Assembly (NCBI GenBank): GCA_030265685.1
Contig: JAJDGO010000007.1
Coordinates: 1 to 46,159, forward strand
DNA length: 46,159 nt
Direction of reading: 5' to 3'
Source: Bacteroidales bacterium OttesenSCG-928-M11
GTDB lineage: Bacteria > Bacteroidota > Bacteroidia > Bacteroidales > Azobacteroidaceae
Below the pieces are notes generated by a model. That model was not told where the DNA came from. It saw nothing but the letters and a program-made list of their open reading frames with translations, and did no database searches. Positions 12,546 through 43,643 of this stretch are shown here, piece after piece (the stretch's first letter is position 1; the number at the start of each line of letters is the position of its first letter). Position numbers and translations under genes: made by a program.

Positions 12546-12565
12546 AAGACCAGAATAAACAATTG

Positions 12566-15500: not shown

Positions 15501-16207
15501 TGAATCATAATATTAATCGCGACCCGACACGAGGACAAGGCTTTGGCTATTTGCCCGGTTCGCGAAAAGAAGTTGAAATGATCAACCAACTCTTATCGGA
15601 TATGAATTGGGAAACCTTTCTTTTTGTTGACTTAGAAGCTACGGAAACAAAATTCAAGTCCCTGTCGTCCAATTCGCCAAGTGTTATTCATATCTCGACA
15701 CATGGCTATTATTTCTCTAAAACAGAAGATGCCGATTACGAATCCCTAAGGAATAGAGGTGCATCAGTAAATAAATATCAACAATCGATTGATCCGTTGA
15801 TGCGCTCCGGTTTAGCTTTCACAGGGGCAAATCATGCTTGGCAAGGAAAAGAAATAACAGCCGACATAGACGATGGCATCCTTACCGCCCACGAAGTTGC
15901 GAATATGAATTTGAGCAACACGGACCTGGTAGTTCTTTCGGCTTGCGATACCGGATTAGGTGATATTGTTGGAGGCGAAGGAGTATATGGTTTGCAACGT
16001 GCCTTCCGTTTGGCGGGAGTCGATTCGATGATTGTTAGTCTCTGGAAAGTTCCCGACAAAGAAACCGTCGAACTTATGTCGCTCTTTTATTCGGAATGGA
16101 CATCCGGTAAAACAATCCGGAACGCCTTTGTTGCTGCACAAAAAAAGATGCGGGAAACTTACCCCGAAGAACCTCGCAAATGGGCTGGCTTCGTCTTGAT
16201 AGAATAA
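12566..16207 (+). CDS. Large secreted TPR-CHAT protein
   Basis: The protein is about 1213 residues and starts with a signal peptide (KYILSLFFLLLIAFPSRGQ). Ten or more TPR-type helical repeats fill about 25-560, with patterns such as YRYEEAEKYLQESLQLANEKYG. A long charged coiled-coil region (about 610-790) follows. The C-terminal CHAT domain (about 830-1213) is a caspase-fold peptidase. Its dyad is His1046 in ISTHGYY and Cys1127 in LSACDTG, followed by GEGVYGLQRAF and SLWKVPD. The ATG at 12566 is preferred to the TTG at 12563. It lies 20 bases after the anti-sigma gene. Such a protein could sense a partner through the repeats and then cleave a target. Confidence 0.9.
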   Translation: MKYILSLFFLLLIAFPSRGQMDISREYAKASLLYHDGDLINAEKIFSEICKVENGNSLRDSHLCTLAEIDCYMGEYNKADSILLHLLEKNDPYYHNSYAYEIALNKIGELYTQTYRYEEAEKYLQESLQLANEKYGKKSEEYITALLYLVQLYMYQDNTPEAEKLIKEAGKKIKSYKDQDRLMAHYYHLKGLLYYYSGDMEKAEKEVVKAIEFCDEEGIGNIPISYTLRLTLPTIYLSLSKYREAENILTRLIPVIEKNFGKKSAFYYRAKDDLAMSYIALSQYQKAIDLYIDLICDLYEYHGNTDYSHYTSINLTYGLGKAYHYAGDFNNAINQYKESVKWRRKLFGDNSIFVVNAVINIGSLYEKMKNWDEANALYSEASDFFERNKEYKSHLLYPLLLLNQTSVCMERGFFSMAQDKLNETEALLKKMEIGKNHILYRNYINTLSVLKYRQNSKDESLEAIFLESLRLTESAEGKGQIYAFELLNLGSYYQENGNLQKAIETKEQALKILEEVAGNNPSFYFHLIEFAIDHERMGNFSVAQECFRKAIDKIQTYAETNLAYLSSNERNTYWDYTTLAFDVLFDCVNRNKEKHPEIIDIGYDSRLFSNSLLLDIERKYQELADTKTDNEEQNGLNRELLARNEELKEYEETLDKIRKQILITLFDSSYELTKELLSNYENDIDVDEILELIYPFEEETKELLEMKAEYLIDLNKLKKLNDQETQQLIDEIEGELEKIKELEDEFVKVIEYTRSEMTQVVLLATNFPSREIETVVAKLDNKELMDQYRQGVDLYKKKQRLADEIREMRRNTNANLSFKLKKDISWSDVKQSLEDQDAAIEFVRFISVEQETYVYAAMILRPDFEHPQMIELCKEGQLISTISESPEDIYELIWKPIENYLGGATNIYIAASGLLHNVSFAGIKKEEQYLIDVYNIHNLLSTRDVVVQKQSDTSSLKTKSMSLFGGADYGLPASELLALNHNINRDPTRGQGFGYLPGSRKEVEMINQLLSDMNWETFLFVDLEATETKFKSLSSNSPSVIHISTHGYYFSKTEDADYESLRNRGASVNKYQQSIDPLMRSGLAFTGANHAWQGKEITADIDDGILTAHEVANMNLSNTDLVVLSACDTGLGDIVGGEGVYGLQRAFRLAGVDSMIVSLWKVPDKETVELMSLFYSEWTSGKTIRNAFVAAQKKMRETYPEEPRKWAGFVLIE

Positions 16208-26841: not shown

Positions 26842-27939
26842 ATGTATATATATCAGACTAAGGATTGGCCGAATTTCACATGGGACAATGGCAAACTGCT
26901 TATATTGTTAGCTAATGTAAGACATTTGCAGGGTCGTTTATTGGGACAAATGGAAAGTTTAGGGTTTAAATTAAAAGAAGAAGCCGTACTTTCTACGTTG
27001 ACCTTGGATGTTCTGAAATCAACTGAAATAGAAGGAGAAATCCTGAATAAAGACCAAGTGCGTTCGTCTATTGCCCGTAAATTAGGCTTGGAGGTATCCG
27101 GCCTGGTCGATTCGCCCAGAAATGTGGATGGTGTTGTAGAAATGATGCTTGATGCCACGCAAAATTATGCTAAACCGATAACCACTGAAAGGCTATTGGG
27201 TTGGCATGCCGCACTTTTCCCGACCGGTTTTAGTGGTATGTATAAAATAGAGGTCGGCAAGTATCGGAGTGGTGATATGCAAGTCGTTTCCGGCGCAATG
27301 GGTAAAGAGAAAGTTCATTATGAAGCTCCTAAACCGGATCAGGTGGAAGCCGAAATGAATTCATTCTTGAAATGGTTCAATGACACATCATCGGATATAG
27401 ACCCAGTACTGAAAGCTGTAATCGCACATTTCTGGTTTGTTACTATTCACCCATTCGATGATGGGAATGGTCGTATTGCGCGTGCTATAACAGACCTTCA
27501 ACTTGCTCGAAGCGATGGAAGTTCACAGCGTTTCTACAGTATGTCAAACCAGATACTTGTTGAGCGAAAGAGATACTATGAAATTTTGGAAAAGTCTCAA
27601 CATGGAACAAGCGATATAACAGAATGGTTGGTTTGGTTTTTAGTTTGTCTTGAAAATGCCTTACTCAATAGTACTGATGTGTTAGATTCCGTTCTGAAAA
27701 AAGCTCGGTTTTGGGAAAAACACAGCCAAACTCCACTGAATGATCGCCAGCGGTTGATGCTTAACAAATTATTAGATGGGTTTGATGGAAAACTGACATC
27801 TTCCAAATGGGCAAAGATAACTAAATGCTCACAAGATACAGCCATACGGGATATACAAGACCTCATAAACAAGGATATTTTGCAGAAAGAGGCACAGGGA
27901 GGAAGAAGTACGAATTATGAATTGTTAGGAACAATATAA
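26842..27939 (+). CDS. Fic family protein with N-terminal inhibitory motif
   Basis: This 365-residue protein has an N-terminal DUF4172-like helical part, the Fic core and a C-terminal winged-helix-like region (from about 295). The Fic motif is HPFDDGNGR at 203-211, with catalytic His203. Such enzymes usually transfer AMP from ATP to a hydroxyl of a protein. STEIEG at 60-65 matches the inhibitory motif (S/T)xxxE(G/N); with the motif N-terminal to the Fic core this is a class II Fic. The enzyme is therefore expected to be self-inhibited. The target is unknown. It starts an operon with an acetyltransferase gene five bases downstream. Confidence 0.9.
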   Translation: MYIYQTKDWPNFTWDNGKLLILLANVRHLQGRLLGQMESLGFKLKEEAVLSTLTLDVLKSTEIEGEILNKDQVRSSIARKLGLEVSGLVDSPRNVDGVVEMMLDATQNYAKPITTERLLGWHAALFPTGFSGMYKIEVGKYRSGDMQVVSGAMGKEKVHYEAPKPDQVEAEMNSFLKWFNDTSSDIDPVLKAVIAHFWFVTIHPFDDGNGRIARAITDLQLARSDGSSQRFYSMSNQILVERKRYYEILEKSQHGTSDITEWLVWFLVCLENALLNSTDVLDSVLKKARFWEKHSQTPLNDRQRLMLNKLLDGFDGKLTSSKWAKITKCSQDTAIRDIQDLINKDILQKEAQGGRSTNYELLGTI

Positions 27940-27944
27940 ATGAA

Positions 27945-28667
27945 ATGGAGAGAAGATTAATCACATCACCCACTAAAGTGGATTTAGAAATAGTAAAAAA
28001 ATGGTTAATCGAAGAATATAAAACCTTCAATGAGGGGTTTTACTGTAACTGGGATGTAATTGAATACGCTTTTAATAGGGGAGAATTCTTTACTTTTTAC
28101 CATGAGAAAGAAATAATAGGCTTTTCTGTTGTTAGTGAAGTAGATAAACATCTGAAAATAGATATTTTTGAAATTGAACCAAGATATAGAAAACAATATT
28201 TGGGAAGATTTTTCTATACAGAGATTGAGAGCTATTTCAAAAATAAAGGATTTTCTGCGATTCAATTATTTTGTTCTCCAAGAGATTCTGAAAAATTTTG
28301 GAGAAAATTAGATTTTATTCAATTCCCCGAAGTTATTTTCTCTGAATCTGATCTAACATTTTATAAACCCTTGATAAAAACACTTTCTCCAAATAATAAA
28401 GTGAGTTGTGATAGTGTATTGGAATTGTGGAATAAAGAGCCATATCAAATAAAAGAAAAAGACACACCTTCTTGGACATGGGGAGTGAATGAGAAAGGTA
28501 AATTAGAATATCCAATTTTATTCCCATGTAGTTATGATTGGAATTTACGTTGGAGAAGAAATGGCGAAATTATCAGAGAAGATAAAGTGAAATATTTTGG
28601 ACGAAAAGGGGAAGAAATATATTTTAGTGGATACTTATATATTGACACATTAGAAATTTTGCAATAG
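27945..28667 (+). CDS. GNAT family N-acetyltransferase
   Basis: In this 240-residue protein the first half has the GNAT pattern: a strand pair (FFTFYHEKEIIGFSVVSEV), the acetyl-CoA loop (FEIEPRYRKQYLGRFFYTEI, about 76-95) and a following strand (SAIQLFCSPRD). The second half (about 150-240) is an additional, mostly beta region rich in Trp (SWTWGV, YDWNLRWRR) that I do not recognise. It lies five bases after the Fic gene. AT content is higher than in the Fic gene, which suggests a separate origin. A toxin or resistance role is possible but not shown. Confidence 0.7.
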   Translation: MERRLITSPTKVDLEIVKKWLIEEYKTFNEGFYCNWDVIEYAFNRGEFFTFYHEKEIIGFSVVSEVDKHLKIDIFEIEPRYRKQYLGRFFYTEIESYFKNKGFSAIQLFCSPRDSEKFWRKLDFIQFPEVIFSESDLTFYKPLIKTLSPNNKVSCDSVLELWNKEPYQIKEKDTPSWTWGVNEKGKLEYPILFPCSYDWNLRWRRNGEIIREDKVKYFGRKGEEIYFSGYLYIDTLEILQ

Positions 28668-29010: not shown

Positions 29011-29301
29011 ATGGGAATAGTAATTATGAAATCTGGCGATTTTCAGGCACTAATGGAAAGAATAGAGGCCATAGAGAAATATATCTATCAAGTGGAGCCA
29101 AAGCAAACTCCTTTGCAGGAAATATGGCTGGATAATGAGGTCGTCTGTTCTTACCTGAAGATCAGTAAACGTACCTTGCAACGTTATCGCAGCAATGGAG
29201 TGATTGCTTATTCACTAATAGGCAAGAAAACGTATTATACCATTTCTGAGATAAAGCGGTTGTTGGAAGAAAAACGCATCATGCGTAAAGCAGAACGATA
29301 G
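29011..29301 (+). CDS. Helix-turn-helix (excisionase-family) protein
   Basis: This 96-residue protein has an N-terminal helix (FQALMERIEAIEKYIYQVE) and an HTH_17-type DNA-binding part: WLDNEVVCSYLKISKRTLQR, then GKKTYYTISEIKRLLEEK. Such proteins are common near the ends and control regions of Bacteroidota ICEs, where they act in excision or regulation. It is on the plus strand and runs 67 bases into the convergent methylase-helicase frame. Its last residues (MRKAER) are encoded within the truncated end of that gene. Its natural C-terminus may therefore also be altered. Confidence 0.8.
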   Translation: MGIVIMKSGDFQALMERIEAIEKYIYQVEPKQTPLQEIWLDNEVVCSYLKISKRTLQRYRSNGVIAYSLIGKKTYYTISEIKRLLEEKRIMRKAER

Positions 29302-32300
29302 TCCGTAATTTCGGCATAAAAAGCCGCCAATTCGGGTACTTTGATAAAATACCGGAAACGTTCTTTCTGCACAATCTCGTTTGTTACCGAAAATTCATAG
29401 TCTATCGATTTCTTGGCGAAAATTGCTGCCCACGCATCGAATGTATTAATGCCTTGCCGTTCCAGTTCGTTTGGCCGGAGATACTTGAAAAGCAAGTATA
29501 ACTCTGTCAAACTGTTGGAAATAGTTGTACCCGAAAGGAAAGTAGCCCCCAAATCCTTGCCCGTCTTGTCTTGAATGGTACGCAGTGCGAAAAGCATATT
29601 TAGGGCACGTTGCGAGCCTTCGGCATTCCCCAGACCTGCAACCCTGTCGTGCCGGGTGGTAAAGGTCAGGTTCTTGAAACGGTGGCTCTCATCAACGTAC
29701 AGGTGGTCGATACCCATTAAACGGAAATCTACCGTATCATCTTTTCGGTTTTCAATCTGATAGGCAATATTACTTAACTTGGCTTCAAGATTAAGCTGCC
29801 GTTTGACTAAGCCTTTCTCCATAGCACGGGAAATTTCCTTACCCTGTGTCCGTAATACTTCCAGATTTTCTTCCACGGAATCGAGTTCCGCCTGTAAGAT
29901 ACGTTGCTGTATTTCGGGCGACTGGGGTATCATACCGAATTGTTCGTGTGTTAAAATGATAGCATCCCAGTTGTTGTTCTTCATTTCGTTGAAGATCTTC
30001 GCCCGTTTTGCGGGGGTAAAATCTTCTTTGCCCGGATACAGCACTTTGGCATTGGGGTAAGCCGTACAGAAAGTTTGGGCTATCTCATGCACATTGGCTT
30101 TAAGAGCCATAATGAGAGGTTTGTTTACCAAGCCCAAACGTTTTTTCTCGTAGGCGCTTACGCATATAATGAGGGTTTTACCACCGCCCACCTCGTGGTC
30201 GATTATGCCCCCGCCATTGAGTTTATCCATCCAAATCGCATCCTTCTGACTTTTGTACAAATCAGGAATACCCAAGCCTTTCAAATCAAGTCCCGGAAAC
30301 TCTTGCTGACTTCCGTCATACTCCGGACGGACGAAACAATTAAACGTGCGGTTGTATTTATCTGCCAGTCGGTCTTTGAACTCCTGCGATTGTTCGTTAA
30401 GCCATTCTACAAAACCGTTCCGTATCTCGTCAATCTTGGAGTTGGCGAGTTGGATTGATTCGGAATCACGCACTTTGACCTCTTTGATTTCCCCGTCAAT
30501 CAACTTATTGACTTTCTTCGTAATATCGGGAGAAGTGTTGTGCAGGGCGTGTTTCATCAGGGCGATACCGTCGAAAGTCCGGTTTGTCGATTTAACAGCG
30601 TACTGATCCCATATCTTGATATTTTTGCTGTTAGCTTTCAGAGTGTACTCATCACGGCTTTGTGCGTAATGTACCGATACGTTTGTATCAAACAAATGCG
30701 AAGCATACTTACTGTAAATACCTGACGGAATCCACCGTTCCCCAAAGTTAAAATCCAAATCCTCGAACGGTATCGGGCGGGGTATTGCTTCTTTGAGAGC
30801 CTTTAGTGATTCTTTTGCCGTTTCGTGGTCAGGGTGGTTCTCTATATACCGCTCGACATGTTCTGCTTTGGATATGACGTTACCGCTTCTGAATTTGTCT
30901 TTAATTTCATAAGCTCCTATCATCGGATTGAAAAATACCTGCCCTTTCAGTTCCTCCAATATTTCGTCCGAAGTGCCGCCTGTAAGCCCTGCCGTATATT
31001 CAAGGTTTACCGTTGCATACTTATTAAGCGAAGCAGTCAGGGCTTCCCGTGCATTATCCGCATGGGTTATCTCGTTCGGATTGAAAGCAACCGGTTGTTG
31101 GAAAATATCGGCTTTAACTGCTTTGCCGTTTACATAGCGTTCAAGGGAGAGAATTTCTGTTCCTCCGGCATCCATTTTAATAAGGCTTAGATTTTTCGCA
31201 TCGTTTATATTTCCGAAACGACGTGTAAAATCATCGTAAAGCCTATTCAACATTTCACGCAGGGCGGGATTGGCTTCCAACCGTGTTGCTTCGTTATTAT
31301 ACAGGTGGTGGTAAGTATCCCGTATTTCAATATAAAGGGATGCTTTCGCCTGCTGTGTCCCTGTGAGCTGAAGCGGATGGAACATCGGCTGAAATCCTTC
31401 TAAATCACGCAAATAACCGATACGATTATTTTCGTCTGTTACGAGAGAGCCATCACGGTAATGGGATGGCATATCTTCTGCATTATAGTAGGGAATCGGC
31501 TTCATACGTTCCTGCTGTTCCCGTTCGGCTTCTTCTTTCAGCCGTTCCAGTTGTTCCTCCCGACGGGCATCAAATACCGGATAGGCTGCCGCAGTTTCCT
31601 CTTGTATCTTTTCCCGTTGCTGTGCGGCGTTATGTGCCATTTCTTCCCGCCAGTCCATAAAGGGAAGTTCTTTTGGCTTACTGGCTTGTGATTTAGACTT
31701 TCGACCTCGCTTTTTAGGCTTGCTTACCTGACTGCGTTCCTCTTGGGTAAAACCGAAAAGGTCATAGAGCGTAATTAAAGGTTGCTCTGTAACAGACTTC
31801 GGTTTCGCCTCCGGAGTCGGCTCTTTCTTAATGGCAGGATCGTCCATATCGAAAAGCGTACCCGAATAATTTTGTTGTTGTTTGGGTGGTTCGGGTTTGC
31901 TTTCAATCGCAGGTTTTATCGTTTCGGATTGATTATTGCCGGGAAACCAGTCGTCTTCAATAGCTTGCCAAAATGGATCGAGTTCATCTGCTTGCCAAAG
32001 AGGATTGAGGTCATTGGTATTTGATTCAAGTGTCGGTTGAATTTCTACGGCGGTTGCAACCTGTTGTTCCGGCGAGTTCTGTGCATGGGTTTGGTAACGC
32101 TTCGAATCTAAATGTTGGGAGAAATCTTCTTTCAACATTTGCCGCAGGTCTTTAGCAATACCCTCTACTCCGCCCTCGTGAGTAAAGACAATCGCAGGTT
32201 TGCCGTAAGGGTCGGTATCAATCTTAGAACTGGTTTGTACAACCCTATCGAAATCACGGAACAGATTATTTATAGAAATACCGTTTGACAGCTTGCGGGA

Positions 32301-33239
32301 TTCTATAAAATCCTGCTGCCTTTGGCTCAGAACTATGTTTTTATTGTTCCGTTGCAGGATTATCAGGTCGCTGCCTACATCAGTTCCGGCATGGTCGGAA
32401 AAGAGATTGTTCGGCAAACGGATAGCTGAAACCACATCGCAGGTGTTCATCAGGTATTCCCGTATCGGCTTGTTCTGTTCCGAATTGAGTACGCCCTGAC
32501 TGGTTATAAAGGCGATTATCCCGCCCTCTCTGGCCGACATAACACTTTTTACAAAAAAGTAGTTGTGTATCGCCTGTGTCGATTGTTTGACGGCGGATAT
32601 TTCATGGTTGGATAGAAGCGGATCGAATACCAAAACATCGCCAAGTGGTATATTGGATGCAATCACATCAAAATGCTGTGAGTAGCGTCCTTCCATTTTC
32701 TCGTAACCCTCAATCCGAACTTTGTCATCAGTATAAAGGTGTGTGAGAATTTTTCCAGTCAGCAGATCTTTTTCAAATCCGGTTACTTTCGCTTCAGGTG
32801 CGGTTTCTTTGAAAGAAGAAATAAACGCTCCTGTTCCGGCACTGGGTTCTAAAAAGTGTGTCGGCGTTATGCCGCTATCTTTCAAAGCATCTGCCAACGC
32901 ATCAATGACAGGCTTCGGTGTATAAAATGCGGTCAGGATAGAACTTTTCAGAGAACTGACATAGCGTTTGTAAACTTCCGGAGTGGGAGAACTTTCACGG
33001 AGTACCTCGTGAAGTTCCTGCACCAACGGGAAAAGTTCGACTTCGGATTTAGACCACCGCTGAATATCTTCGGGTTTGTCGGCAGGGTTAAGAATTGCTT
33101 TTATTCCTCCGAACCCTGAATATTTAGCGAGTATTTCCCGTCCTTCGGGTGTTGCCTGTCGTTGTTCCTTATCGAGCCTTAACGCTAACTTAATTGCATC
33201 AATATTCTGACGCAAATGAGTTCGCTTATTGTAACTCAT
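29235..33239 (-). CDS. ICE methylase-helicase (BmhA-like), C-terminally truncated
   Basis: This 1334-residue frame begins with an N6-adenine methylase domain: SAM loop FLEPSAGTGAF near 134-144 and the NPPY-like ASNIPLGD near 194. A Pro/Gln-rich linker lies at about 400-570. A helicase lobe follows with HEVGGGKT, later DESHRFKN and SGTTISN. Relatives of this family in conjugative elements are much longer. This one ends soon after EITDYR with 19 unrelated residues, so the second helicase lobe is missing. The cut coincides with the convergent helix-turn-helix gene. The methylase half may still work; the motor half should not. It overlaps DUF1896 by 14 bases. Confidence 0.85.
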   Translation of the reverse strand: MSYNKRTHLRQNIDAIKLALRLDKEQRQATPEGREILAKYSGFGGIKAILNPADKPEDIQRWSKSEVELFPLVQELHEVLRESSPTPEVYKRYVSSLKSSILTAFYTPKPVIDALADALKDSGITPTHFLEPSAGTGAFISSFKETAPEAKVTGFEKDLLTGKILTHLYTDDKVRIEGYEKMEGRYSQHFDVIASNIPLGDVLVFDPLLSNHEISAVKQSTQAIHNYFFVKSVMSAREGGIIAFITSQGVLNSEQNKPIREYLMNTCDVVSAIRLPNNLFSDHAGTDVGSDLIILQRNNKNIVLSQRQQDFIESRKLSNGISINNLFRDFDRVVQTSSKIDTDPYGKPAIVFTHEGGVEGIAKDLRQMLKEDFSQHLDSKRYQTHAQNSPEQQVATAVEIQPTLESNTNDLNPLWQADELDPFWQAIEDDWFPGNNQSETIKPAIESKPEPPKQQQNYSGTLFDMDDPAIKKEPTPEAKPKSVTEQPLITLYDLFGFTQEERSQVSKPKKRGRKSKSQASKPKELPFMDWREEMAHNAAQQREKIQEETAAAYPVFDARREEQLERLKEEAEREQQERMKPIPYYNAEDMPSHYRDGSLVTDENNRIGYLRDLEGFQPMFHPLQLTGTQQAKASLYIEIRDTYHHLYNNEATRLEANPALREMLNRLYDDFTRRFGNINDAKNLSLIKMDAGGTEILSLERYVNGKAVKADIFQQPVAFNPNEITHADNAREALTASLNKYATVNLEYTAGLTGGTSDEILEELKGQVFFNPMIGAYEIKDKFRSGNVISKAEHVERYIENHPDHETAKESLKALKEAIPRPIPFEDLDFNFGERWIPSGIYSKYASHLFDTNVSVHYAQSRDEYTLKANSKNIKIWDQYAVKSTNRTFDGIALMKHALHNTSPDITKKVNKLIDGEIKEVKVRDSESIQLANSKIDEIRNGFVEWLNEQSQEFKDRLADKYNRTFNCFVRPEYDGSQQEFPGLDLKGLGIPDLYKSQKDAIWMDKLNGGGIIDHEVGGGKTLIICVSAYEKKRLGLVNKPLIMALKANVHEIAQTFCTAYPNAKVLYPGKEDFTPAKRAKIFNEMKNNNWDAIILTHEQFGMIPQSPEIQQRILQAELDSVEENLEVLRTQGKEISRAMEKGLVKRQLNLEAKLSNIAYQIENRKDDTVDFRLMGIDHLYVDESHRFKNLTFTTRHDRVAGLGNAEGSQRALNMLFALRTIQDKTGKDLGATFLSGTTISNSLTELYLLFKYLRPNELERQGINTFDAWAAIFAKKSIDYEFSVTNEIVQKERFRYFIKVPELAAFYAEITDYRSALRMMRFSSNNRFISEMV

Positions 33240-33672
33240 TTTCGAGCAATATCAGGATTGTGCCGACAAGCTCCGTATAGAGCGACTGGTACTCGGTCGT
33301 CTCGGCATAATCATCGTTCAGGTTGTATTTGGCAAATACCGCCTGACATTCAGGCAATAGTTCTTTCGCCTTTGTTTGGGCTTCGCCCGGAGATACTTCG
33401 TCGAAAAACTCGTTCCAAAGGATTTCAACGATTACATTATAAGGTGAAAAGTGTAAGCCTTTGAACAGAGCTTCGTTTGCAATTTCGGTAGCCTGAATAT
33501 GGTCTAAGCCGCTTTTAATGGCTTCACTATATGCTTCGGCTGCCATATCTCCACGCCCTGCAATAAATGAAAGGTCATTGGCTTTGTCAGGGTGTGAATC
33601 TCGTAAATAAGATAGTAGATTGAGCCGGAAATACGACATTTCCGCTGGCTCTAAATTTGAATTGTATTTCAT
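33226..33672 (-). CDS. DUF1896 family protein
   Basis: This 148-residue, mainly helical soluble protein reads YFRLNLLSYLRDSHPDKAND at its start, and LHFSPYNVIVEILWNEFFDEV around 83-103. It matches DUF1896, which precedes the methylase-helicase gene in Bacteroides-type ICEs. The overlap with that gene is 14 bases, so they form one unit. The function is unknown. A conserved regulatory module lies upstream (33685-33862). Confidence 0.85.
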   Translation of the reverse strand: MKYNSNLEPAEMSYFRLNLLSYLRDSHPDKANDLSFIAGRGDMAAEAYSEAIKSGLDHIQATEIANEALFKGLHFSPYNVIVEILWNEFFDEVSPGEAQTKAKELLPECQAVFAKYNLNDDYAETTEYQSLYTELVGTILILLENELQ

Positions 33673-33684
33673 ACTGATAACTGA

Positions 33685-33862
33685 TTTTGTTCTGCATCAC
33701 TATTAATGCGGAATAAAAATACCTGCAATCTGTGAGTAAGAAGATGAATTTGAAGCAGGTGGCAGTATGTGGCTTCGATTTGGATATATGTGGCGTTATA
33801 ATCGTGATTTTGAAATATATCAGTGTGTATAGACTCTGGTTCTTAAATATTTATTAAATTTG
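33685..33862. repeat. Regulatory module, copy 1 (upstream of DUF1896, divergent to cargo)
   Basis: The segment is repeated at 45179-45334. Shared parts in order: TTTTGTTCTGCATCACTATT followed by AATGC.GAATAAAA; AGGTGGCAGT.TGTGGCTTCG followed by ATTTGG and TGTGGCGTT; and CTTAAATATTTA.TAAATTTG. The first block contains inverted ends (TGCAT...ATGC[G/A]). The last ends in a perfect plus-strand -7 element, TAAATTTG at 33855-33862, pointing at the cargo operon. It may control backbone genes in one direction and cargo in the other. Confidence 0.75.
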
Positions 33863-33913
33863 GGGCATGCTAAATAGCATAGTAGCGTTAACCTAAGTGT
33901 GAATAGAAATAAC

Positions 33914-33937
33914 ATGTCTAATAATTTCAAATTATGA
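33914..33937 (+). CDS. Possible seven-codon leader peptide
   Basis: ATG at 33914 opens MSNNFKL and stops at TGA 33935-33937. The stop overlaps the start codon of the following large gene (ATGA). This can couple translation of the large gene to the leader. Too short to judge by coding statistics. Confidence 0.3.
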   Translation: MSNNFKL

Positions 33938-36900
33938 GTTCAAAAGCAAGACAAATTAATCGGAAGATAAAGAAAAATAAAATAGTAGAATTAAATAATA
34001 TTACTTATTATCCCATAAAGTACTTTGCTAATAGAAATGATATTGAAATTCTTTTATCGCAACCAACTTCACAGGATGCTAATTTTTTAAATCTTTTTCC
34101 TAAAAAATACCATGAAATTAGATTAAACAAACCTAGAATTTTTAAAAGTCAGGATTTGCAAAAAGAAATACAATGGCAGTATTTTATTGTTAGAAAATAT
34201 TCTGAGCCGATAAAAAAATATCTTGAAAGAAAAAATATATTCGAAAATAATTTTTTTCTAGGGGATTATAATGAAGCGATGGATGTACTAAATAATATTG
34301 AATCTGAGATTTGTATTTCAGATTGGTCTACAGAAATGAAAATATTAACAGCATATCATGCTAAGGATTACGAAGATTTTAAAAAATATACAATAAATGA
34401 TTTGTTTGCTAAAATTAAGAAAAAAACCAACGAACATCTATTTGCATATTTAAACTCATTACGAATTGAAAAAGAGTTACCCATTGTTAGATTTGAAAAA
34501 GAATTTAAAAAAGTTATTGATGTGTTTGCTGAAAAATCACCTCACTATGTAGATTACTACTACTACAAAGTAAACTTTCACAATCATACAATGTCATACA
34601 ATGATGTAAAATTATTGCAAATAGAGGATATGTCTTCTATTATTGACCGATATGAAACCCTAATATTTATTATCCAGTCCATTTTTTGCAAAAAAATGAA
34701 TAACACAATTTCAAACGAGTGGCTACATGTTATCATTCAAAATTTATATTCATTTACAAACGACAAACGACTCGAAAATTTACTCTTATTTACGGGCAAA
34801 GCTGATTGTGTTAAAATCACAGAAAAAGATCTGGAGTATTGTAATTTGATAGATATTTATACTAATCAAAATTATAACGATTCAAAACAACTTGCAAAAC
34901 AACTTTTATTGAAATATCCCAATTTATTTGATCTTTATAAAATATATGCATTATCGTGTGTTTATTCGAATACTGCCTTAGAAAATGTTTTTTTTGCCAG
35001 AAATTCTATTGCTCATAAAGCATTAGATAACATTTATAAAGTATTATCTAAAAGTGATGAATTGAATGAATCTATTGCTATTTTACGTAATTTATACACT
35101 TCATTGGGTAAAATGTCATGGGCATTCAAATGCTGTTCTTTTGTTTATAATGAAACTTCTTTATATACGAAAGAGTTTAAGTACCGATTATTTTCTATCT
35201 TGAACGATAACATTTTGTATCCGCGAATTGTCAGATATATAAAATCGAAAGAAATTCTTCGATCTATAGTTGATTCTCATGTTTTCAAAATAAATAATAA
35301 CATTAAGTTTCTAATTTATAATCAAGCAAAATGTTTAAAATTCGATGACATTGTCATTGATTATGTTAGTTGTGACTCATTTAGAGAAAGAATAGCCAAT
35401 GCACAAGTGTTAAAATCTTTAAAGAAATACAAATGTGCTAATGAAATTTTTGACGAAATCACATTCAATAAATCTTTTGAAACTCTTTTAAAAATTCCGC
35501 ACAATGAAATCAAAATAGTTCATGGAAAGATGAGATGCTTGGTTGAAATGGGAGAATTTAATGATGCTATAACCCTTGTTACTAATTATATTCTAAAAAA
35601 TAGAGCATATTCAACGAAATTAAGATACGAAACACTAATCAGCGCTGTAATAAATAATCCAAGTTCAGACATTCGAGGAAATGTATTTTCTCCAATATAT
35701 CTACATTTATTTAAGGTTGATGATATATATCAATGGGGTGCATTAGCCAATTATATGTCAGCTAATAAAATACATTCCCCACATGAACTCTCATCAATAT
35801 CAAATGAAAATATTGAAAATATTAAATATGTTCTTAGAAATGTATGTACAAAAAATATTATTGGTAGTGGTGCTACAAAATATACGAGCAGGCAGGGTTT
35901 AATCGAAGAATGTATTGAAGTTTACAACAGACTAATTCAAATTGATAGTGAAAATAAAAAAGATTACGAGGAAGAAATATACAGACTTGAAATAGACAAA
36001 AATGTAATTTCAACACAATATCGAACAAGTCATGGGAAATTAACGGTTAATATTGAAGGGATAAAAAATGATGTAAAATATCTTATATTGAAAAAAAAAT
36101 TCAATGATTTATTTAACGCCAACTATGATAAAATCAACGACAAAAAAACGCAGGCCGTCATCTTCAGCCAAAATTTCAACCGTTTGTTTGAAGACATTCG
36201 TGATATTTTTGTACTTAATAATGATTACGGATTTGATTGGTATTTAGGAACAAGAATTAGACATGGCAATATGCAGAACGCTATACGAACTATTTTTGAA
36301 GAATATAATTTGATTACAATCATAGATTCAAAAACTTCAAAATATTTACAAAATTCTGCATGGGATGCATTATCCAAAGAAAAAAAATTCCAAACTATAA
36401 TGTCCGATTTTTCATCTAAAATTGACAATCTAATAACAGATTTAAACAAAAGAATATTACGCGTTAAAATTGATAAAGAATTGCCATCAGATGCATTATT
36501 TGACTTCTGTTTCAGCGACGAAGAACTTAAAAAAATGTGTAATAAAATTATTAAAACCGACAATATAACATTTGAAAATTTCTTTGACGCCATCGTTGAT
36601 GAGCTTTGGAATAGAAGTAATCAAAATTTAAAAATAGCTAGAGAATTCTTATTAGATAATGTTATAAATAAAATTAACGACTTTAACATTAATCTACAGA
36701 ACGAACTTCAAAAGCATTATAAAAAGCAACAACTTTTTTCTCTTACAGAATCTATTTTAAGTGCGAATACAGCATGTCAGAATAAAATAACAAATATCAC
36801 TAAGTGGTTTAGCATAATGAAACCAGACGATAATCCTTTTAAACTTGAAAATTTAATAGAGGCATGTCATATTTCTTTTTATAAACAGATAAAACTGGAA

Positions 36901-37320
36901 GTCACACTAAGTAATTTTAAAAATTTGATTAATGGAAAATACTTAAATCCATTTTCTGATATATTTCATATTCTATTCAATAATGTTGCCAATCATTCTG
37001 GATTATCGTTAGAGAAAATTAATGTTAATGTTCACCTGAAAGATGAAGAAGGATATTTATCCATTTTAATAAGTAATAATTTATCAAATAATATAGATAT
37101 TGATAAAAAAAACAAAGAAATATCATCTTGTTTAAAAAATTTGGATAATTTAAGTATAGCGGATACCCATAGCGGCTTAGCTCGAATCCACAAATTAATA
37201 ACAAAAGATATGGACTTACAGGATGCAGTAATAGAAATTCCTAAAATAATGAAAAATTATAAAATTGAAGTCTCGATTAAAATGAAAAATACAATTTACC
37301 ATGAGAATACTAATAATTGA
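33934..37320 (+). CDS. Cargo protein A: helical-repeat protein with divergent GHKL ATPase domain
   Basis: This protein of 1128 residues, with no signal peptide or membrane helix, is very rich in Lys, Asn and Ile. Residues about 60-680 are helical and in places TPR-like (CANEIFDEITFNKSF, MRCLVEMGEFNDAITLVTNY). The C-terminal part (about 985-1115) resembles a histidine-kinase ATPase. The N-box is ILFNNVANHSG with Asn1017 and His1021. A G2-like SGLARIHKLI follows at 1080-1089. The G1 Asp is missing: ISNNLSNN stands at 1046-1053. No phosphorylatable H-box is evident. It overlaps gene B by 20 bases. It could be a sensor or an ATP-binding switch acting on the receivers of B and C. Confidence 0.7.
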   Translation: MSSKARQINRKIKKNKIVELNNITYYPIKYFANRNDIEILLSQPTSQDANFLNLFPKKYHEIRLNKPRIFKSQDLQKEIQWQYFIVRKYSEPIKKYLERKNIFENNFFLGDYNEAMDVLNNIESEICISDWSTEMKILTAYHAKDYEDFKKYTINDLFAKIKKKTNEHLFAYLNSLRIEKELPIVRFEKEFKKVIDVFAEKSPHYVDYYYYKVNFHNHTMSYNDVKLLQIEDMSSIIDRYETLIFIIQSIFCKKMNNTISNEWLHVIIQNLYSFTNDKRLENLLLFTGKADCVKITEKDLEYCNLIDIYTNQNYNDSKQLAKQLLLKYPNLFDLYKIYALSCVYSNTALENVFFARNSIAHKALDNIYKVLSKSDELNESIAILRNLYTSLGKMSWAFKCCSFVYNETSLYTKEFKYRLFSILNDNILYPRIVRYIKSKEILRSIVDSHVFKINNNIKFLIYNQAKCLKFDDIVIDYVSCDSFRERIANAQVLKSLKKYKCANEIFDEITFNKSFETLLKIPHNEIKIVHGKMRCLVEMGEFNDAITLVTNYILKNRAYSTKLRYETLISAVINNPSSDIRGNVFSPIYLHLFKVDDIYQWGALANYMSANKIHSPHELSSISNENIENIKYVLRNVCTKNIIGSGATKYTSRQGLIEECIEVYNRLIQIDSENKKDYEEEIYRLEIDKNVISTQYRTSHGKLTVNIEGIKNDVKYLILKKKFNDLFNANYDKINDKKTQAVIFSQNFNRLFEDIRDIFVLNNDYGFDWYLGTRIRHGNMQNAIRTIFEEYNLITIIDSKTSKYLQNSAWDALSKEKKFQTIMSDFSSKIDNLITDLNKRILRVKIDKELPSDALFDFCFSDEELKKMCNKIIKTDNITFENFFDAIVDELWNRSNQNLKIAREFLLDNVINKINDFNINLQNELQKHYKKQQLFSLTESILSANTACQNKITNITKWFSIMKPDDNPFKLENLIEACHISFYKQIKLEVTLSNFKNLINGKYLNPFSDIFHILFNNVANHSGLSLEKINVNVHLKDEEGYLSILISNNLSNNIDIDKKNKEISSCLKNLDNLSIADTHSGLARIHKLITKDMDLQDAVIEIPKIMKNYKIEVSIKMKNTIYHENTNN

Positions 37321-37750
37321 TGACACTCCGAACAAAATGAAAAATCTAGAAGATGCAATATTAGAATACTCTTCTGATATTGCTATTGTAAAAAGGAGAT
37401 CATTTCAATCAGGTCTTAAAGAGATAGAAGATAGTCATTTTGATCTTATTTTATTAGACATGTCTTTACCACCTTATGACATAACTGGAGAGGTTGAAGA
37501 AGAAGTTGTTGTTAAGAGTGGACTTAATATACTCATTGAAATGGAGCGCCAACAAATTAATATTGATGTGGTGGTTATTACTCAATTCCCAAGTTTTGGG
37601 ACAGGAAGAGACATTCTAACATTAGATAATATAAAAGAGCAGATGAAACAATATAAAAATTACAGAAAGACTATTTTTTATGTTCAAAAAGAAACTAAAT
37701 GGAGAATAGAATTGATTAATCATATTAAATTATTAAAGCATCATGGGTAA
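37301..37750 (+). CDS. Cargo protein B: stand-alone receiver domain
   Basis: This 149-residue single-domain response regulator of the CheY type has acidic residues Asp7 and Asp8 (LIIDDTPNK) and phospho-acceptor Asp53 (LILLDMSLPP). The switch threonine follows in VVVITQF. A lysine-containing segment (VQKETKW) occupies the place of the conserved Lys. An insert of about ten acidic residues (TGEVEEEVVVK) follows the acceptor. There is no output domain. It overlaps both neighbours (20 and 8 bases), so A, B and C are one tightly linked unit. It may shuttle a phosphate or act as a decoy or scaffold between A and C. Confidence 0.85.
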   Translation: MRILIIDDTPNKMKNLEDAILEYSSDIAIVKRRSFQSGLKEIEDSHFDLILLDMSLPPYDITGEVEEEVVVKSGLNILIEMERQQINIDVVVITQFPSFGTGRDILTLDNIKEQMKQYKNYRKTIFYVQKETKWRIELINHIKLLKHHG

Positions 37751-40700
37751 ATTGAATGTTATTATTGCGGATGATAATAAAAATAAAACAAAGAGAATAA
37801 AAAGCTTCTTGAAAAGCAACTCGTCAATCTTGTCAGAAGTATATCCTGATGCAAATAGCTGTATTGAAGCATTAAGAAGAAAGCATTATGATATATTAAT
37901 ATTAGATTTGGTAATAGACAACTCTTATGAAGAAGAAGACCCCAAAGCCGAATATGGACTTAAGGTATTGAAATCCTTGCAGATAGAATCGCAAATCAAC
38001 AAGCCAACACATGTAATATTATTAACACACTTCGTCGATATATATGAAAAATATGAAGCGGAAATTAAAAAGTATCCATGCAAGATTATTATTTACAATC
38101 AAAATTCAAATGAATGGGAGTATTCAATCAGCGATTGCATTAATTGCCTGCTAACACTTAAAACGAATCATTATAGCAAATTAGAGACAGAAATATCTAA
38201 TGTTTCTGTCTCTAAACTAGAGTTAGAACAAGAACTAAAATTAAGAGAAGACTCCTTGTATAGTCATTTGAAAGAACAAGGCGATAGTGTTGAATATTCT
38301 GCAAAATCAACAAATGATTACATTAAATTAATAGATGGCTATATTTCGGTTGAAAAATCTAATATAGTAAGAGAATTGTGTGATGTGCTTTGCGAAAATC
38401 TTTGGAGACCTCAACTTAAGGATGCAATGAGTAATTTTACAGATCATAAGTTAGAGCATTCGTACCGAGTTCTAAAAAGAGCACTGCAAATAACAAATAA
38501 TGCAAAGCGATATAAAAATAATTTTATTTATTTAAATGAGAATGAATTATATATATTAGCTCTGTCATCATTATTACATGATATTGCTATGTCTGGACAT
38601 CCCAAAATGGAATTTGATCGAAATATTATGCAATATTTTGATCAAGAAAAATCAGCAAGTATACATTTTGAAGAATATCCTATAGATGCAAAAGATTATT
38701 CAGATCAACAACAGAATGAAGTAAGGAGGTATCATGCATATTTTGCCATTGCAAAAATAAAGCTAGCTCTTAATGAAAAAAAACATTATTTACACAACAT
38801 ACTCAGTAAAGTAGAAGATAAGTATTGGAAATATGTATTTACAATAATAAAATTTCATTCAAAAGAAAAGGTATCAGATATACCTCCATCAATAGAGAAC
38901 AATCCAGAAACCGACCTTATAAGAGTTCCATTTACTACTATTTTATTTCGCATGGCGGATGAGCTGGATTTGGGAAAAGAACGAGATATTGAAGCTGCAA
39001 GAAGGCAGGGAATGCCTTCTGAATCAAGGGCGTACTGGGAAATGGACTACAGAATGAATGTTATTATTGATGAAAATAATTACATCAATATTAAATTTAG
39101 AGCGAATGAAATTGATATTCGAAACCATAGCAAACTATTTAGTACTTTAATAAAAAATCATATTCATAAAAATAGAGAACTTGTTAATAAGCTCCACCAG
39201 TATGGGTTAATATTAGTTTATAATGAATATGACGAACTTACACTTATAGAGAATAAAGAAGAAAGTATACAATCTACAATTATTGACGAATTAAAAAAAA
39301 TAGCCAATCAAGACAAGACAAAAGAAGAGAATGATAATGATAGAATAGCGTTTTTAGAAAATAATTTTATGAGTGGTTTCAAACTCAAGAAAAACTATAT
39401 GGGTATCATTATTCCCCGTATAGGAAATAAGTACAAACTCTATGTGTATAAAGAGTTTTATTTATTTAAGAAAAAGGAGTCAATAAAATGCAAAATTCAT
39501 ATAAACAAAAAGCATAACGAAACATCAACTGCATTAGATGAAAATAACTTAAAATTATCTGCCTATATTTCTTACCATTCAGAAAATAGCAATTTTGATG
39601 AATTTATTAAATGTGATGTGATTGATAAAATAAGTGCTGGTGAAGAATATTTTCACTTTAGATTACATTTTAAACGCAAAAAACAAAATAAAGATATTAA
39701 ATTGCCAATAGAAAAAGGCGATATTATTGCTGTTTTTTACACTTACGAGGTTGATTGTATACATTATGGTAATGAATTAGTCAGAGATTCTACTATTTTT
39801 GCTGATAGTGAATTAATGTGTGAACTTAGTTATCCTGAAAAAAATGAAAGCTTTTACAATATTGATTTTTACGAAAGAGATGATCAGGGGGAATTGACCT
39901 TGTTGAAAGGTAATAATAAATGTAGAACGACATCATCTTCATCAATTTTCAAGAAGTTGCATAAAAACAATAATTTCACAAAAATTATCGATGAATTATT
40001 TTTCGACACAGGTTGCAAATACCTCCAAATGGACTATAAAAAATGGCTTAATAATAATAAAAAAACACATTATAACATATATACCTTTGTCGCTAATTGG
40101 AACTTCGTCCCATTTTTCACAGATCCAGATATGTATTTGAGAATGGAACGTTATGTGAATAACGGTTCTCCCAGTGGATTCACTAAGATAAACAATACAA
40201 GTAAAAAATACACCCCATATTCTAAAACAACAGAATTTGGTGTGCCAATAATTCAAATAGACGATCATAGTTCTTGTAAAGATTTTGGCTTTATTCCCTC
40301 ATGGCTAAATCAAAACGAAATATTAGTGCATCCAGACTATGAAGGATTATTTATGGATAATAAAAAATCAACACTTGCAGTTATTCCTACTGCTAGCTCA
40401 AGAACTGTCTTTGTCACAGACAAAAAATGTTATGCTAAATTACAATATAACAAAAAAATAGGACGAATAGAAAGGGTTTTTACTCCTGAGAAAATAGATA
40501 ATTCAATTAAAATATCAGCACTATTAAAAGAAAAATTCAATCAAAAAGTTTTTTCTGAAGATTTATTTATCTTACCAGAAGAATTTGGGAGAATTATTGA
40601 TTTTGGAGAAAATTTTCAAAAAAGATTTGATAGTCGCTATTTGGGTATGATTATACGTGATTATTTGCCATATCCAAATCACGAAATTGTAGATTCTCAA

Positions 40701-41348
40701 TGGCGATTAATACCAGCATTTTCATTATTTGCAGATACAAATGAAATTATGTCCAAGTCTATTATTGAGTTGCTCTATGATTTCAGAGAAGATACTAGTA
40801 TAAACTACGAGACATTTATTTGTAATAAAATTATAAAACCTGTATATAAATTATATTTCGAATTTCTCTTAAAGACAGGCTTGCATATAGAAGGACATGC
40901 GCAAAATATATTATATTTGATTACAATCAATGAAAACAAATTGAATATTAGAGGAGTTGTTATTCGAGATTTTGAATCTTTTGATAAAGATCTGGATATT
41001 ATTGGGAGTCTAAATATCAAACATAAATTTGGGTCATTAAATGAGAGAACAAACTGTTCGCAAGATAAAGATAGTTATACAAAAAGAAATAGCTTTTTAT
41101 TTGATTTTAAATTAGGAGAATATTTAATTACGCCTCTCTTAGATCACTCTGAAAAAAAAATAGAGAGCTTTAGGAAGAAAAGTGTTATTTCTGAAATAAA
41201 AAAATTTAATGAGGAGTACATAAAGCTACTTCCAGAAGATTTTTTCCCAAAAGGAACATGGTATTCATACAAAAATATAGAAATTGATCGAACACGTTCA
41301 ACTCGCCCTTGGCAAGAACACGCTAAACCTAAGTATAGGAAACGTTAA
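37743..41348 (+). CDS. Cargo protein C: receiver-HD-(unknown)-IucA/IucC-like fusion
   Basis: The protein has 1201 residues. Receiver (1-140): Asp10, Asp11 and acceptor Asp55; the conserved Lys is not evident. HD phosphohydrolase-like domain (about 205-410): His235 and His239 (TDHKLEH), His279-Asp280 (LLHDIA), His331, His372, and Asp406/Asp409 in MADELDL. A beta-rich region of unknown type covers about 500-740. C-terminal ligase-like domain (about 780-1190): VHP at 862-864, Ser885-x-Arg887-Thr888, Lys899, Arg911, Glu1050-x-His1052-x-Gln1054-Asn1055, Asp1076. These match, with the same spacings, the ATP-binding residues I recall for the siderophore synthetase AcsD. The substrates of the HD and ligase parts are unknown. 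Confidence 0.75.
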   Translation: MGKLNVIIADDNKNKTKRIKSFLKSNSSILSEVYPDANSCIEALRRKHYDILILDLVIDNSYEEEDPKAEYGLKVLKSLQIESQINKPTHVILLTHFVDIYEKYEAEIKKYPCKIIIYNQNSNEWEYSISDCINCLLTLKTNHYSKLETEISNVSVSKLELEQELKLREDSLYSHLKEQGDSVEYSAKSTNDYIKLIDGYISVEKSNIVRELCDVLCENLWRPQLKDAMSNFTDHKLEHSYRVLKRALQITNNAKRYKNNFIYLNENELYILALSSLLHDIAMSGHPKMEFDRNIMQYFDQEKSASIHFEEYPIDAKDYSDQQQNEVRRYHAYFAIAKIKLALNEKKHYLHNILSKVEDKYWKYVFTIIKFHSKEKVSDIPPSIENNPETDLIRVPFTTILFRMADELDLGKERDIEAARRQGMPSESRAYWEMDYRMNVIIDENNYINIKFRANEIDIRNHSKLFSTLIKNHIHKNRELVNKLHQYGLILVYNEYDELTLIENKEESIQSTIIDELKKIANQDKTKEENDNDRIAFLENNFMSGFKLKKNYMGIIIPRIGNKYKLYVYKEFYLFKKKESIKCKIHINKKHNETSTALDENNLKLSAYISYHSENSNFDEFIKCDVIDKISAGEEYFHFRLHFKRKKQNKDIKLPIEKGDIIAVFYTYEVDCIHYGNELVRDSTIFADSELMCELSYPEKNESFYNIDFYERDDQGELTLLKGNNKCRTTSSSSIFKKLHKNNNFTKIIDELFFDTGCKYLQMDYKKWLNNNKKTHYNIYTFVANWNFVPFFTDPDMYLRMERYVNNGSPSGFTKINNTSKKYTPYSKTTEFGVPIIQIDDHSSCKDFGFIPSWLNQNEILVHPDYEGLFMDNKKSTLAVIPTASSRTVFVTDKKCYAKLQYNKKIGRIERVFTPEKIDNSIKISALLKEKFNQKVFSEDLFILPEEFGRIIDFGENFQKRFDSRYLGMIIRDYLPYPNHEIVDSQWRLIPAFSLFADTNEIMSKSIIELLYDFREDTSINYETFICNKIIKPVYKLYFEFLLKTGLHIEGHAQNILYLITINENKLNIRGVVIRDFESFDKDLDIIGSLNIKHKFGSLNERTNCSQDKDSYTKRNSFLFDFKLGEYLITPLLDHSEKKIESFRKKSVISEIKKFNEEYIKLLPEDFFPKGTWYSYKNIEIDRTRSTRPWQEHAKPKYRKR

Positions 41349-41363
41349 TTTAAGAAAGTAAAA

Positions 41364-41390
41364 GGCACCGGGGTATCCCTCCCCAGTGCC
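41364..41390 (-). terminator. Terminator downstream of topB
   Basis: On the minus strand GGCACTGGGG pairs with CCCCGGTGCC (one G-T pair) around a seven-base loop, followed by TTTTACTTTC. It would end the topB transcript about 150 bases after the gene. On the plus strand it has no T-run, so the cargo operon may not stop here. Confidence 0.7.
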
Positions 41391-41543
41391 ACCACTAAAA
41401 AAATTCAATAGCACCTGATTTAACAATTTCTCGTCAAACTGTGGCGTATGAACTTTCTTAGTGGCAAATGTACGATTATGCAAGGACAGTACAAAATTCA
41501 TCTTGTATTGTCGAGCATGGGTACATTATGAAAAGATAGCACT

Positions 41544-43643
41544 TTATTTGCGTTTCTTATTGAAGCCCTTCTTTGGAGGGAACTCAAAAATTGTTTTATA
41601 TTCTGCATCAAAAGCTACAATAGCATCGAAAGGTTTGTTTTCTTTACTCTTGAAACCTTTGATTGTTCCTGTCCTACCTTTGGTAAGCAGGTCTTTGAGT
41701 TGCCCGTCGGTTAAGTCTTTACCCGATTTACTCCGAAATACGGTAAGACCACAGCTTTCATTATTACATTTGGCGACCTTTGGATAAAACATGGCCTGAC
41801 CATTCTTACATTTAGGACAGGTACAATTTTCTCTCGTATTACCTCCTTCGATTTTACTTTCGAGTAATTCTGTGGTTATCTGTGCAGCATATACTTCAAT
41901 TCCTCTGTGGAATGTATCGGCACCCATTTCTCCAACTGCAATTTTATTCAGTGCATTTTCCCATTCGCCTGTCATACTTACATCCGCAATCTTTTTATCA
42001 CGGACAGCCAGATGAACTACCAACCCTTTGTTGATAGGAACAAGGGATTTCTTTTCACGTCGGATATATTCACGAGAGAATAATGTTTCGATAATACTGG
42101 CACGGGTAGCAGGTGTTCCGATACCTGATTCTTTGATTGCTTCCCGCTCTTCCTCGTTGGTAAGGTCTTTACCACAGGTTTCCATAGAAGAAAGCAGACT
42201 GCTTTCTGTGTGTAACGGGCGAGGCTTGGTTTGTTTCTCCAATAAGTCCGTTCCATGAATGGGAAGTATGTCGCCATTTGATAAAGACGGAAGTGACAGT
42301 GCATCGTCTTCGCCTTTTTCTTCATCGGGTGCATTTAAGACAGCACGCCAACCGGGAGTAAGGATAACACTACCTTTGACCGAAAACAAAACGCCCGAAG
42401 CATCCAAAGAAACACTTGTATTCTCTTTGGTACATTTACCTGAAAAGGCTTCCAACATACGGGCAGCAATCATATCATATATGATACGCTGGTCGGCTGA
42501 AATATCGCCCGTCATATTTTCCGTAATAATCAGGGCATGGTGGTCGGTAACTTTTTTATCGTTTACCGAACGCCTGTTCAGGCTTACTCCTGACAATGTT
42601 TTTGCGTAACTGCCGAATGGAGCATAACCGGATAGCTGACTGATAAGGGCAGGTATCTCGGCAAAAACATCATCGGAAATATAGCGACTTCCTGTTCTCG
42701 GATAGGAAATGAGCTTCGCTTCATAAAGCGATTGTGCCACCGACAGGGTTTTATCTGCCGAAAAACTATGGCGGCTGTTCGCTTCTTTCTGCAAGGTGGT
42801 CAGGTCGTAGAGCAATGGCGGTTCCTGACTTCCTTGCTTTGTTTCTACGTTTACGACGCTGACTGATTCTGACGAGCGGATACGCTCTAAGATTGTGTCT
42901 GCGTCCTGTTTCGTATTGTATCGTTCTGTGGAAATAGCGGCGAACTGGGTTGCATCTTTTGCCGTATGCAATTTTACCTGAAAATAGGTTTGCGGCTTGA
43001 ACTCTTTGTTTTCGAGGTATCGGCTGCAAATCATGGCGAGTGTGGGTGTTTGTACACGACCTAACGACCATACCCCGTAGCCTGCCGATACCGAAAGGGC
43101 TTGTGAAGCATTTATTCCGACAACCCAATCGGCTTGGCTCCGGGCTTTTGCTGAAGCGTACAGGTTGTCGTACTCTTTTCCCGGACGTAGGTTCTCCAAT
43201 CCTTTGCGGATAGCCTGATCCGTAAGGCTGCTTATCCAAAGACGGTCGAAAGGTTTGGAACAATAAAGATAATCAAATATATATCTGAAAATTAACTCTC
43301 CCTCACGCCCGGCATCGGTAGCAACCACGATTCGCTCACATTTATTGAATAACTCTTTGATAACTTTAAGTTGCTTCATTGTGCCCGGATCGGGTTTATA
43401 TTCCTTACCGTCCTTTATCTGACGAGGTAACAACTTAAATTCGGCAGGAAGTATCGGCAGGTTTTCAGCTTGAAAGCCTGTGATACCATAATCCTGTGGC
43501 ATTGCCAATGTTATGAGGTGTCCAAACGCCCATGTAACGGCATATCCATTACCTTCCAAATAACCGTCCTTGCGGTTACTCGCACCAACGATAGCTGCTA
43601 TATCACGGGCTACCGACGGTTTTTCTGCAATTATTACTTTCAT
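41544..43643 (-). CDS. topB: DNA topoisomerase III (type IA) of the ICE
   Basis: This 699-residue enzyme relaxes or decatenates DNA by passing single strands, probably to help conjugative DNA processing. The Toprim domain has Glu7 (AEKPS) and DAGREGE. The catalytic tyrosine is Tyr314 in LISYPRTGSRYI. A C4 zinc ribbon (CTCPKC, later CNNESC) is near 608-632, followed by a TopIII C-terminal domain (GKDLTDGQLKDLLTKGRTG). All key residues are intact. It follows DUF3945 by 29 bases on the same strand. In relatives of this ICE it is usually near DUF1896; here the cargo operon separates the two. Confidence 0.96.
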   Translation of the reverse strand: MKVIIAEKPSVARDIAAIVGASNRKDGYLEGNGYAVTWAFGHLITLAMPQDYGITGFQAENLPILPAEFKLLPRQIKDGKEYKPDPGTMKQLKVIKELFNKCERIVVATDAGREGELIFRYIFDYLYCSKPFDRLWISSLTDQAIRKGLENLRPGKEYDNLYASAKARSQADWVVGINASQALSVSAGYGVWSLGRVQTPTLAMICSRYLENKEFKPQTYFQVKLHTAKDATQFAAISTERYNTKQDADTILERIRSSESVSVVNVETKQGSQEPPLLYDLTTLQKEANSRHSFSADKTLSVAQSLYEAKLISYPRTGSRYISDDVFAEIPALISQLSGYAPFGSYAKTLSGVSLNRRSVNDKKVTDHHALIITENMTGDISADQRIIYDMIAARMLEAFSGKCTKENTSVSLDASGVLFSVKGSVILTPGWRAVLNAPDEEKGEDDALSLPSLSNGDILPIHGTDLLEKQTKPRPLHTESSLLSSMETCGKDLTNEEEREAIKESGIGTPATRASIIETLFSREYIRREKKSLVPINKGLVVHLAVRDKKIADVSMTGEWENALNKIAVGEMGADTFHRGIEVYAAQITTELLESKIEGGNTRENCTCPKCKNGQAMFYPKVAKCNNESCGLTVFRSKSGKDLTDGQLKDLLTKGRTGTIKGFKSKENKPFDAIVAFDAEYKTIFEFPPKKGFNKKRK

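Follow-up and report, generated by a model that had tools for sequence, protein, structure and literature searches.

Positions 1 to 46,159 (forward strand) of contig JAJDGO010000007.1 of Bacteroidales bacterium OttesenSCG-928-M11 (GenBank assembly GCA_030265685.1), hereafter the window, carry three plus-strand genes, A, B and C, which overlap by 20 bases (A/B) and 8 bases (B/C) and which together resemble the anti-phage system Detocs up to the start of C, where a different predicted effector follows. Their coordinates, strand, lengths and overlaps, given in an earlier note made from the letters of this DNA, were all reproduced; across 100 mononucleotide shuffles of positions 33673-41543, the longest open reading frame reached 114 amino acids. 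The genes and their parts are the following:

33934..37320, plus strand: gene A, 1128 amino acids, a DtcA-like putative sensor kinase with a distant GHKL ATPase at the C-terminus (PADLOC PDC-M60A; alignment with 10 relatives)
36259..36264, plus strand: Arg776-His777 of A, within an IRHG motif, containing the putative phospho-acceptor histidine (unchanged in all 11 A proteins)
36982..37176, plus strand: putative ATP-binding region of A, bounded by Asn1017 (N-box) and Gly1081 (G-box) (both residues invariant in 11 of 11)
37301..37750, plus strand: gene B, 149 amino acids, a single DtcB-like receiver with putative phospho-acceptor Asp53 (Pfam Response_reg, 8.6e-8)
37743..41348, plus strand: gene C, 1201 amino acids, receiver, HD-CE, β-rich middle and NIS synthetase (open reading frame and Pfam)
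37758..38042, plus strand: receiver of C, residues 6-100, with putative phospho-acceptor Asp55 (Pfam 4.4e-5, below the curated cut-off)
38430..39140, plus strand: HD-CE domain of C, residues 230-466, with His239, His279-Asp280 and Asp406 (Pfam PF24391, 3e-19, above the cut-off)
39204..40124, plus strand: β-rich middle of C, approximately residues 488-794 (common to a second protein, at 48% identity; low confidence in the structure model)
40125..41345, plus strand: NIS (IucA/IucC-type) synthetase domain of C, approximately residues 795-1201 (Pfam)

The receivers proposed in the earlier note for B and C, and the HD and IucA/IucC domains proposed for C, are all recovered by profile searches. In addition to the Pfam matches, the PADLOC model PDC-M60B matches B at 1.6e-25 and PDC-M60C matches residues 5-157 of C at 9.7e-18, and aspartate occupies the phospho-acceptor position and that of the second acidic residue in 22 of 22 B and C receivers. 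Gene A is matched by PDC-M60A at 1.1e-55 over residues 49-1085, and its His777 is the likely phospho-acceptor, because it is invariant among the A proteins. The GHKL-like part that the note had assigned to A survives as a distant resemblance: Pfam finds no kinase or GHKL domain in A and a weak GHKL match in one of the 11 A proteins, and an hhalign comparison of the C-terminal profile of these 11 with three ordinary kinases places the N-box and G-box in register at P 4e-4, with a probability of just 35%.

Beyond its receiver, C carries two predicted catalytic parts. The HD-CE domain has the metal-binding motif H...HD...D, of which His239 and His279-Asp280 align in all three other HD-CE sequences and Asp406 in two of the three. 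The NIS domain is matched by PF04183 (IucA_IucC) at 7e-8, with 32.8 bits against a cut-off of 25, and is predicted to have the NIS fold. Its ATP/adenylate residues are S885, R887, K899, R911, H1052, Q1054, N1055 and D1076; six of them (R887, K899, R911, Q1054, N1055 and D1076) are invariant in 16 of 16 NIS sequences, H1052 almost so, and S885 is not. At about 400 residues the domain lacks the first 115-155 or so residues of the NIS siderophore synthetases IucA, AcsD, AsbB and DesD; it also differs from them in sitting behind a receiver and an HD-CE domain, in a segment with no siderophore genes. Neither PF01048 (purine nucleoside phosphorylase, PNP) nor PF13271 (DUF4062) was found in C by Pfam.

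On its sequence, the A-B-receiver chassis is of the described Detocs type, which PADLOC represents as PDC-M60; we take the two to be the same because the composition of PDC-M60 matches that of Detocs as described. According to the accessible parts of the sources (PMC11249213, PMC11728103, PMC9966839, PMC10952713), Detocs is a three-gene anti-phage family consisting of the kinase DtcA, the buffer DtcB and the response regulator DtcC, and the effector described best for DtcC is an ATP-degrading PNP. The three PDC-M60 models also match the three genes of an operon in Sinorhizobium medicae, where C is a receiver joined to a phosphorylase and PDC-M60C covers 400 of its 406 residues (3.8e-112). Relatives of A occur in 32 plasmid records, of which 10 were inspected, making 13 loci together with three from Bacteroidales that a search with the C receiver brought up. 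The order A, B, C holds in all 10 plasmid operons, and C is a receiver with PNP_UDP_1 in nine of them (in one, L017, a PNP without a Pfam-visible receiver). The remaining one, from an Enterobacter hormaechei plasmid (L020:8657-9811, plus strand), has a weak α/β-hydrolase match below the cut-off and is not a PNP. In a Klebsiella operon the genes overlap by 23 and 8 bases.

The three Bacteroidales loci have PNP in C too; of the six other matches in the scan of 392 other Bacteroidales genomes, two (L009 and L010) are ordinary receivers. A profile of the 11 A proteins, run on 385 other Bacteroidales genomes, finds three clear relatives, in the genomes of these same three PNP loci, and an additional weak partial match in G565, while a single PADLOC A model has no match in 295 other Bacteroidota genomes. 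One of the three loci (L008, in genome G710) has B and C, with A on a different contig; it is again in a mobile setting, because a TraG/type IV secretion system coupling-type gene adjoins it (L008:1-786, plus strand).

The window operon thus shares with Detocs three genes that overlap and keep the same order, a long kinase-like A, a single-receiver B, a receiver opening C, the invariant histidine and aspartates, and relatives on plasmids. It differs in that C, at 1201 amino acids against 384-414 in the 13 other loci, has HD-CE and an NIS synthetase in place of the phosphorylase. As C contains no PNP, we file the operon as a variant of the Detocs chassis, distinct from PNP-Detocs. The earlier note had seen a signal-controlled enzyme module, perhaps anti-phage, and knew of no described system of this composition. 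Membership of the Detocs-type models argues for the first of these claims. The second has to be divided: the relay is already known, and the effector composition is new among the sequences and literature searched. DefenseFinder lists other Detocs effector types. No literature on variant Detocs effectors was found in a search beyond whose reach lay the primary Detocs paper and most subscription papers; among the papers listed, none has a title on the HD-CE domain, and the available part of PMC7159879 holds nothing on HD domains. SidL, considered as an NIS-like adenylyltransferase, was dropped, the accessible text describing a PAP2-like enzyme.

Full-length relatives of C were found neither in 394 other Bacteroidota genomes nor in 392 other Bacteroidales genomes (samples that, together with a third of 175, may overlap), nor in phage or plasmid records, and a whole-C scan of genome_contigs confirmed none. 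Searches with the HD-CE and middle parts alone turned up no plasmid relatives, phage records hold no match for C or A, and viral contigs scanned with the queries P0003, P0001, A1, A4 and A9 yielded no confirmed relatives. A scan with four NIS sequences returned 21 loci, 15 of which entered the NIS alignment (A5; left out were L035, L037 and L039-L042). Among them, a Bacteroidetes metagenome-assembled genome (L025) encodes an 858-residue protein that is 54.6% identical to residues 488-1199 of C. This protein (L025:7687-10263, plus strand) starts with DUF4062 (PF13271, 5.3e-18) and continues with the middle and NIS parts, of which the NIS part is 63% and the middle 48% identical to C; third codon positions have changed most. 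AbiEi and AbiEii are encoded next, downstream of this gene, and its product may be a defence protein that works as a single gene. In the tree, C and the L025 protein stand together with full support, next to standalone NIS proteins of Bacteroidales and Clostridia, and a profile of the shared middle-plus-NIS part has a single match in 175 other relatives, an NIS-only protein of G506.

The neighbourhoods of the standalone NIS proteins point to no common substrate. One lies beside NUDIX and histidine phosphatase genes (L026), another beside a histidine phosphatase and an S66 peptidase (L030 and L005, apparently the same locus). On Methylocystis plasmids (L002:5555-11130 and L003:5553-11121, plus strand) a short NIS gene accompanies chromate-resistance genes, DUF1259 and an MFS transporter. 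A further short NIS gene sits in a gene run that includes S51 peptidase, YdjC and NT5C (L028:2101-11198, plus strand), which may be a biosynthetic cluster and so could show what the short NIS enzymes act on. Two proteins of 797 and 693 amino acids without a Pfam match (L031:6540-8933 and L032:7752-9833, plus strand), whose starts look alike by eye, are encoded close to short NIS and β-lactamase-fold genes.

The HD-CE domain of C lies behind a receiver and ahead of NIS, whereas of two other copies one (L021) is fused to an HSP90-like ATPase and the second (L022), on a weak match, to a reverse transcriptase; both fusions fit a conflict role for HD-CE. The latter is an open frame in Bacteroidales genome G503 (L022:1-2586, plus strand) with RVT_1 below the cut-off and HD-CE at 1.4e-25, and HD-CE is possibly the effector of a defence-type reverse transcriptase there.

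The setting of the operon is defined by the backbone features around it:

29235-33239, minus strand: large N6-methylase/SNF2-type backbone gene (Pfam)
33226..33672, minus strand: DUF1896 backbone gene, left insertion border (Pfam PF08989, 2.1e-50; adjoins topB in L054)
41364..41390, minus strand: G-C rich, terminator-like hairpin, 15 bases past the stop of C (weak, with three such sites against 2.5 expected from shuffles)
41544..43643, minus strand: topB of the backbone, right insertion border (Pfam Topoisom_bac, 3.5e-121)

The placement between topB and DUF1896 of a minus-strand backbone, called an ICE in the earlier note, and the higher AT content of the operon, both noted earlier, hold up: GC content is 26.2, 28.9 and 28.7% in A, B and C against 42.7-44.9% in four flanking backbone genes. 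In another Bacteroidales genome (L054), topB (54.0% identical to that of the window), DUF1896 and the large methylase/SNF2-type gene are consecutive, and the gap between the first two is 15 bases by the longest reading frame, or at most about 190 if the start is that of the DUF1896 match; in the window it is 7871. Because topB and DUF1896 are neighbours in L054, the A-B-C segment is an insertion between them, and A, B and C are its only long genes. No repeats bordering the segment occur among the repeats listed (20 of 39 direct families and 25 of 94 inverted pairs). The genome of the window has another topB (L051; 68.7% identity), with different genes after it. The minus-strand hairpin would serve topB and could, as a hairpin, also end the transcript of C; promoter-like sites show no excess over shuffled sequence.

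Several further features accompany this backbone. The methylase/SNF2-type gene of the window looks cut short, because it encodes 1334 amino acids against 1938 in L054 and lacks the Helicase_C match found there. Near the empty topB-DUF1896 site in L054 lies a partial elongation-factor-like GTPase (L054:1-1464, minus strand) that, judged by eye, looks like a tetracycline resistance protein of the ribosomal-protection kind. Elsewhere in the window, positions 12563-16207 (plus strand) encode a TPR repeat protein of 1214 amino acids with a CHAT domain at its C-terminus, and positions 26842-28667 (plus strand), left of the backbone genes, encode a Fic/DUF4172 protein followed by a GNAT acetyltransferase.

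We read the locus as an anti-phage operon of the Detocs type that a Bacteroidales mobile element carries as cargo and that is equipped with a new effector, with a probability of roughly 0.7. The sequences compared show the order of the genes, their families, the invariant and ATP-site residues and the predicted NIS fold, and from there we infer a signal flow and a defence role. Following the Detocs scheme by analogy, A would sense infection and autophosphorylate on His777, a role suggested by the invariance of this residue; the phosphate would pass to Asp55 in the receiver of C, and B, through Asp53, would draw off phosphate and so damp false alarms, as described for DtcB. Phosphorylated C would then switch on its two fused catalytic parts, HD-CE as a metal-dependent phosphohydrolase and NIS as a synthetase that adenylates a carboxylate of the cell at the expense of ATP and couples it to a nucleophile, releasing AMP and pyrophosphate. 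The presumed outcome is that a metabolite is lost or poisoned and that the infected cell arrests or dies before phage release. Whether the NIS reaction, and not HD-CE alone, is the harmful step we regard as evenly balanced.

The most serious alternative keeps the same Detocs-type relay and makes HD-CE the sole effector, with the middle and NIS parts as a regulatory or ligand-sensing gate for the enzyme that precedes them. It draws on the fact that this module follows two unrelated N-terminal domains, HD-CE in the window and DUF4062 in L025, and on Swarozyc, in which, according to the accessible part of a 2026 preprint (PMC13174449), DUF4062 domains are TIR-like NADases that act against phages through abortive infection, the C-terminal auxiliary domain of the DUF4062 protein is required for defence, and the trigger is the phage portal. 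The L025 protein is like Swarozyc in starting with DUF4062, whereas C of the window lacks this domain; neither IucA nor siderophore occurs in the main text of the preprint. Yet both fused proteins retain the NIS residues that were compared, the NIS part is more conserved than the middle, which is expected of a working enzyme and not of a phage-facing sensor, and a sensor is already supplied by A. On these sequences we favour the NIS part as a working enzyme, because two different N-terminal domains share one conserved NIS part with ATP-site residues, and consider the gate unlikely, though it is the strongest of the competing explanations.

Some observations weigh against our reading of an anti-phage operon with an NIS effector. 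The auxiliary domain of Swarozyc would, by analogy, suit the middle-plus-NIS part as a sensing or gating part. A second A-B-C operon with an HD-CE and NIS effector was found in none of the 394, 392 and 175 other genomes, and the one full-length C comes from an incomplete metagenome-assembled genome (51.7% complete). The sole other middle-plus-NIS protein found, that of L025, has neither A nor B beside it and metabolic genes upstream (glycosidase, TonB-type and IPP transferase). That A is a kinase is weakly indicated by its profile match, and the missing PNP sets the operon apart from the best-described Detocs.

That the operon instead serves no defence, as a two-component unit controlling the stress-responsive synthesis of a siderophore-like or other carboxylate-derived small molecule, seems improbable: siderophores are the normal products of NIS synthetases and the short standalone relatives lie among metabolic or resistance genes, but the segment has no siderophore partner beside A, B and C, the first two fall in a PADLOC family whose relatives carry phosphorylase or hydrolase-like effectors, and in L025 the sister NIS part comes attached to an NADase-family domain. 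The idea that C is an accidental or decaying fusion with a dead passenger domain has in its favour that a single full-length example was found, and is very hard to reconcile with 1201 open codons, with key receiver, HD and NIS residues that are kept and with changes relative to L025 that fall mostly on third codon positions.

To our knowledge, the defence effectors that attack metabolites all cleave or deaminate their targets, such as ATP, NAD or nucleic acids, and we know of none described that does so by conjugation. A synthetase under an immune relay would, if our reading is true, represent the opposite chemistry, harm by joining. More tentatively, at somewhat less than even odds, we propose that the NIS acyl-adenylating synthetase is a new and portable class of immune effector, attached to a Detocs relay with HD-CE in one case and to a DUF4062 NADase-type domain in the other, which conjugates a central carboxylate at the expense of ATP into something useless or toxic. 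With the relay and the active-site residues identified and the independent L025 fusion isolating the shared part, the locus makes this idea testable. If true, it would widen the set of effectors known for the Detocs chassis and give DUF4062 and HD-CE a common partner, and the combination could reveal a new bacterial way of shutting down infected cells.

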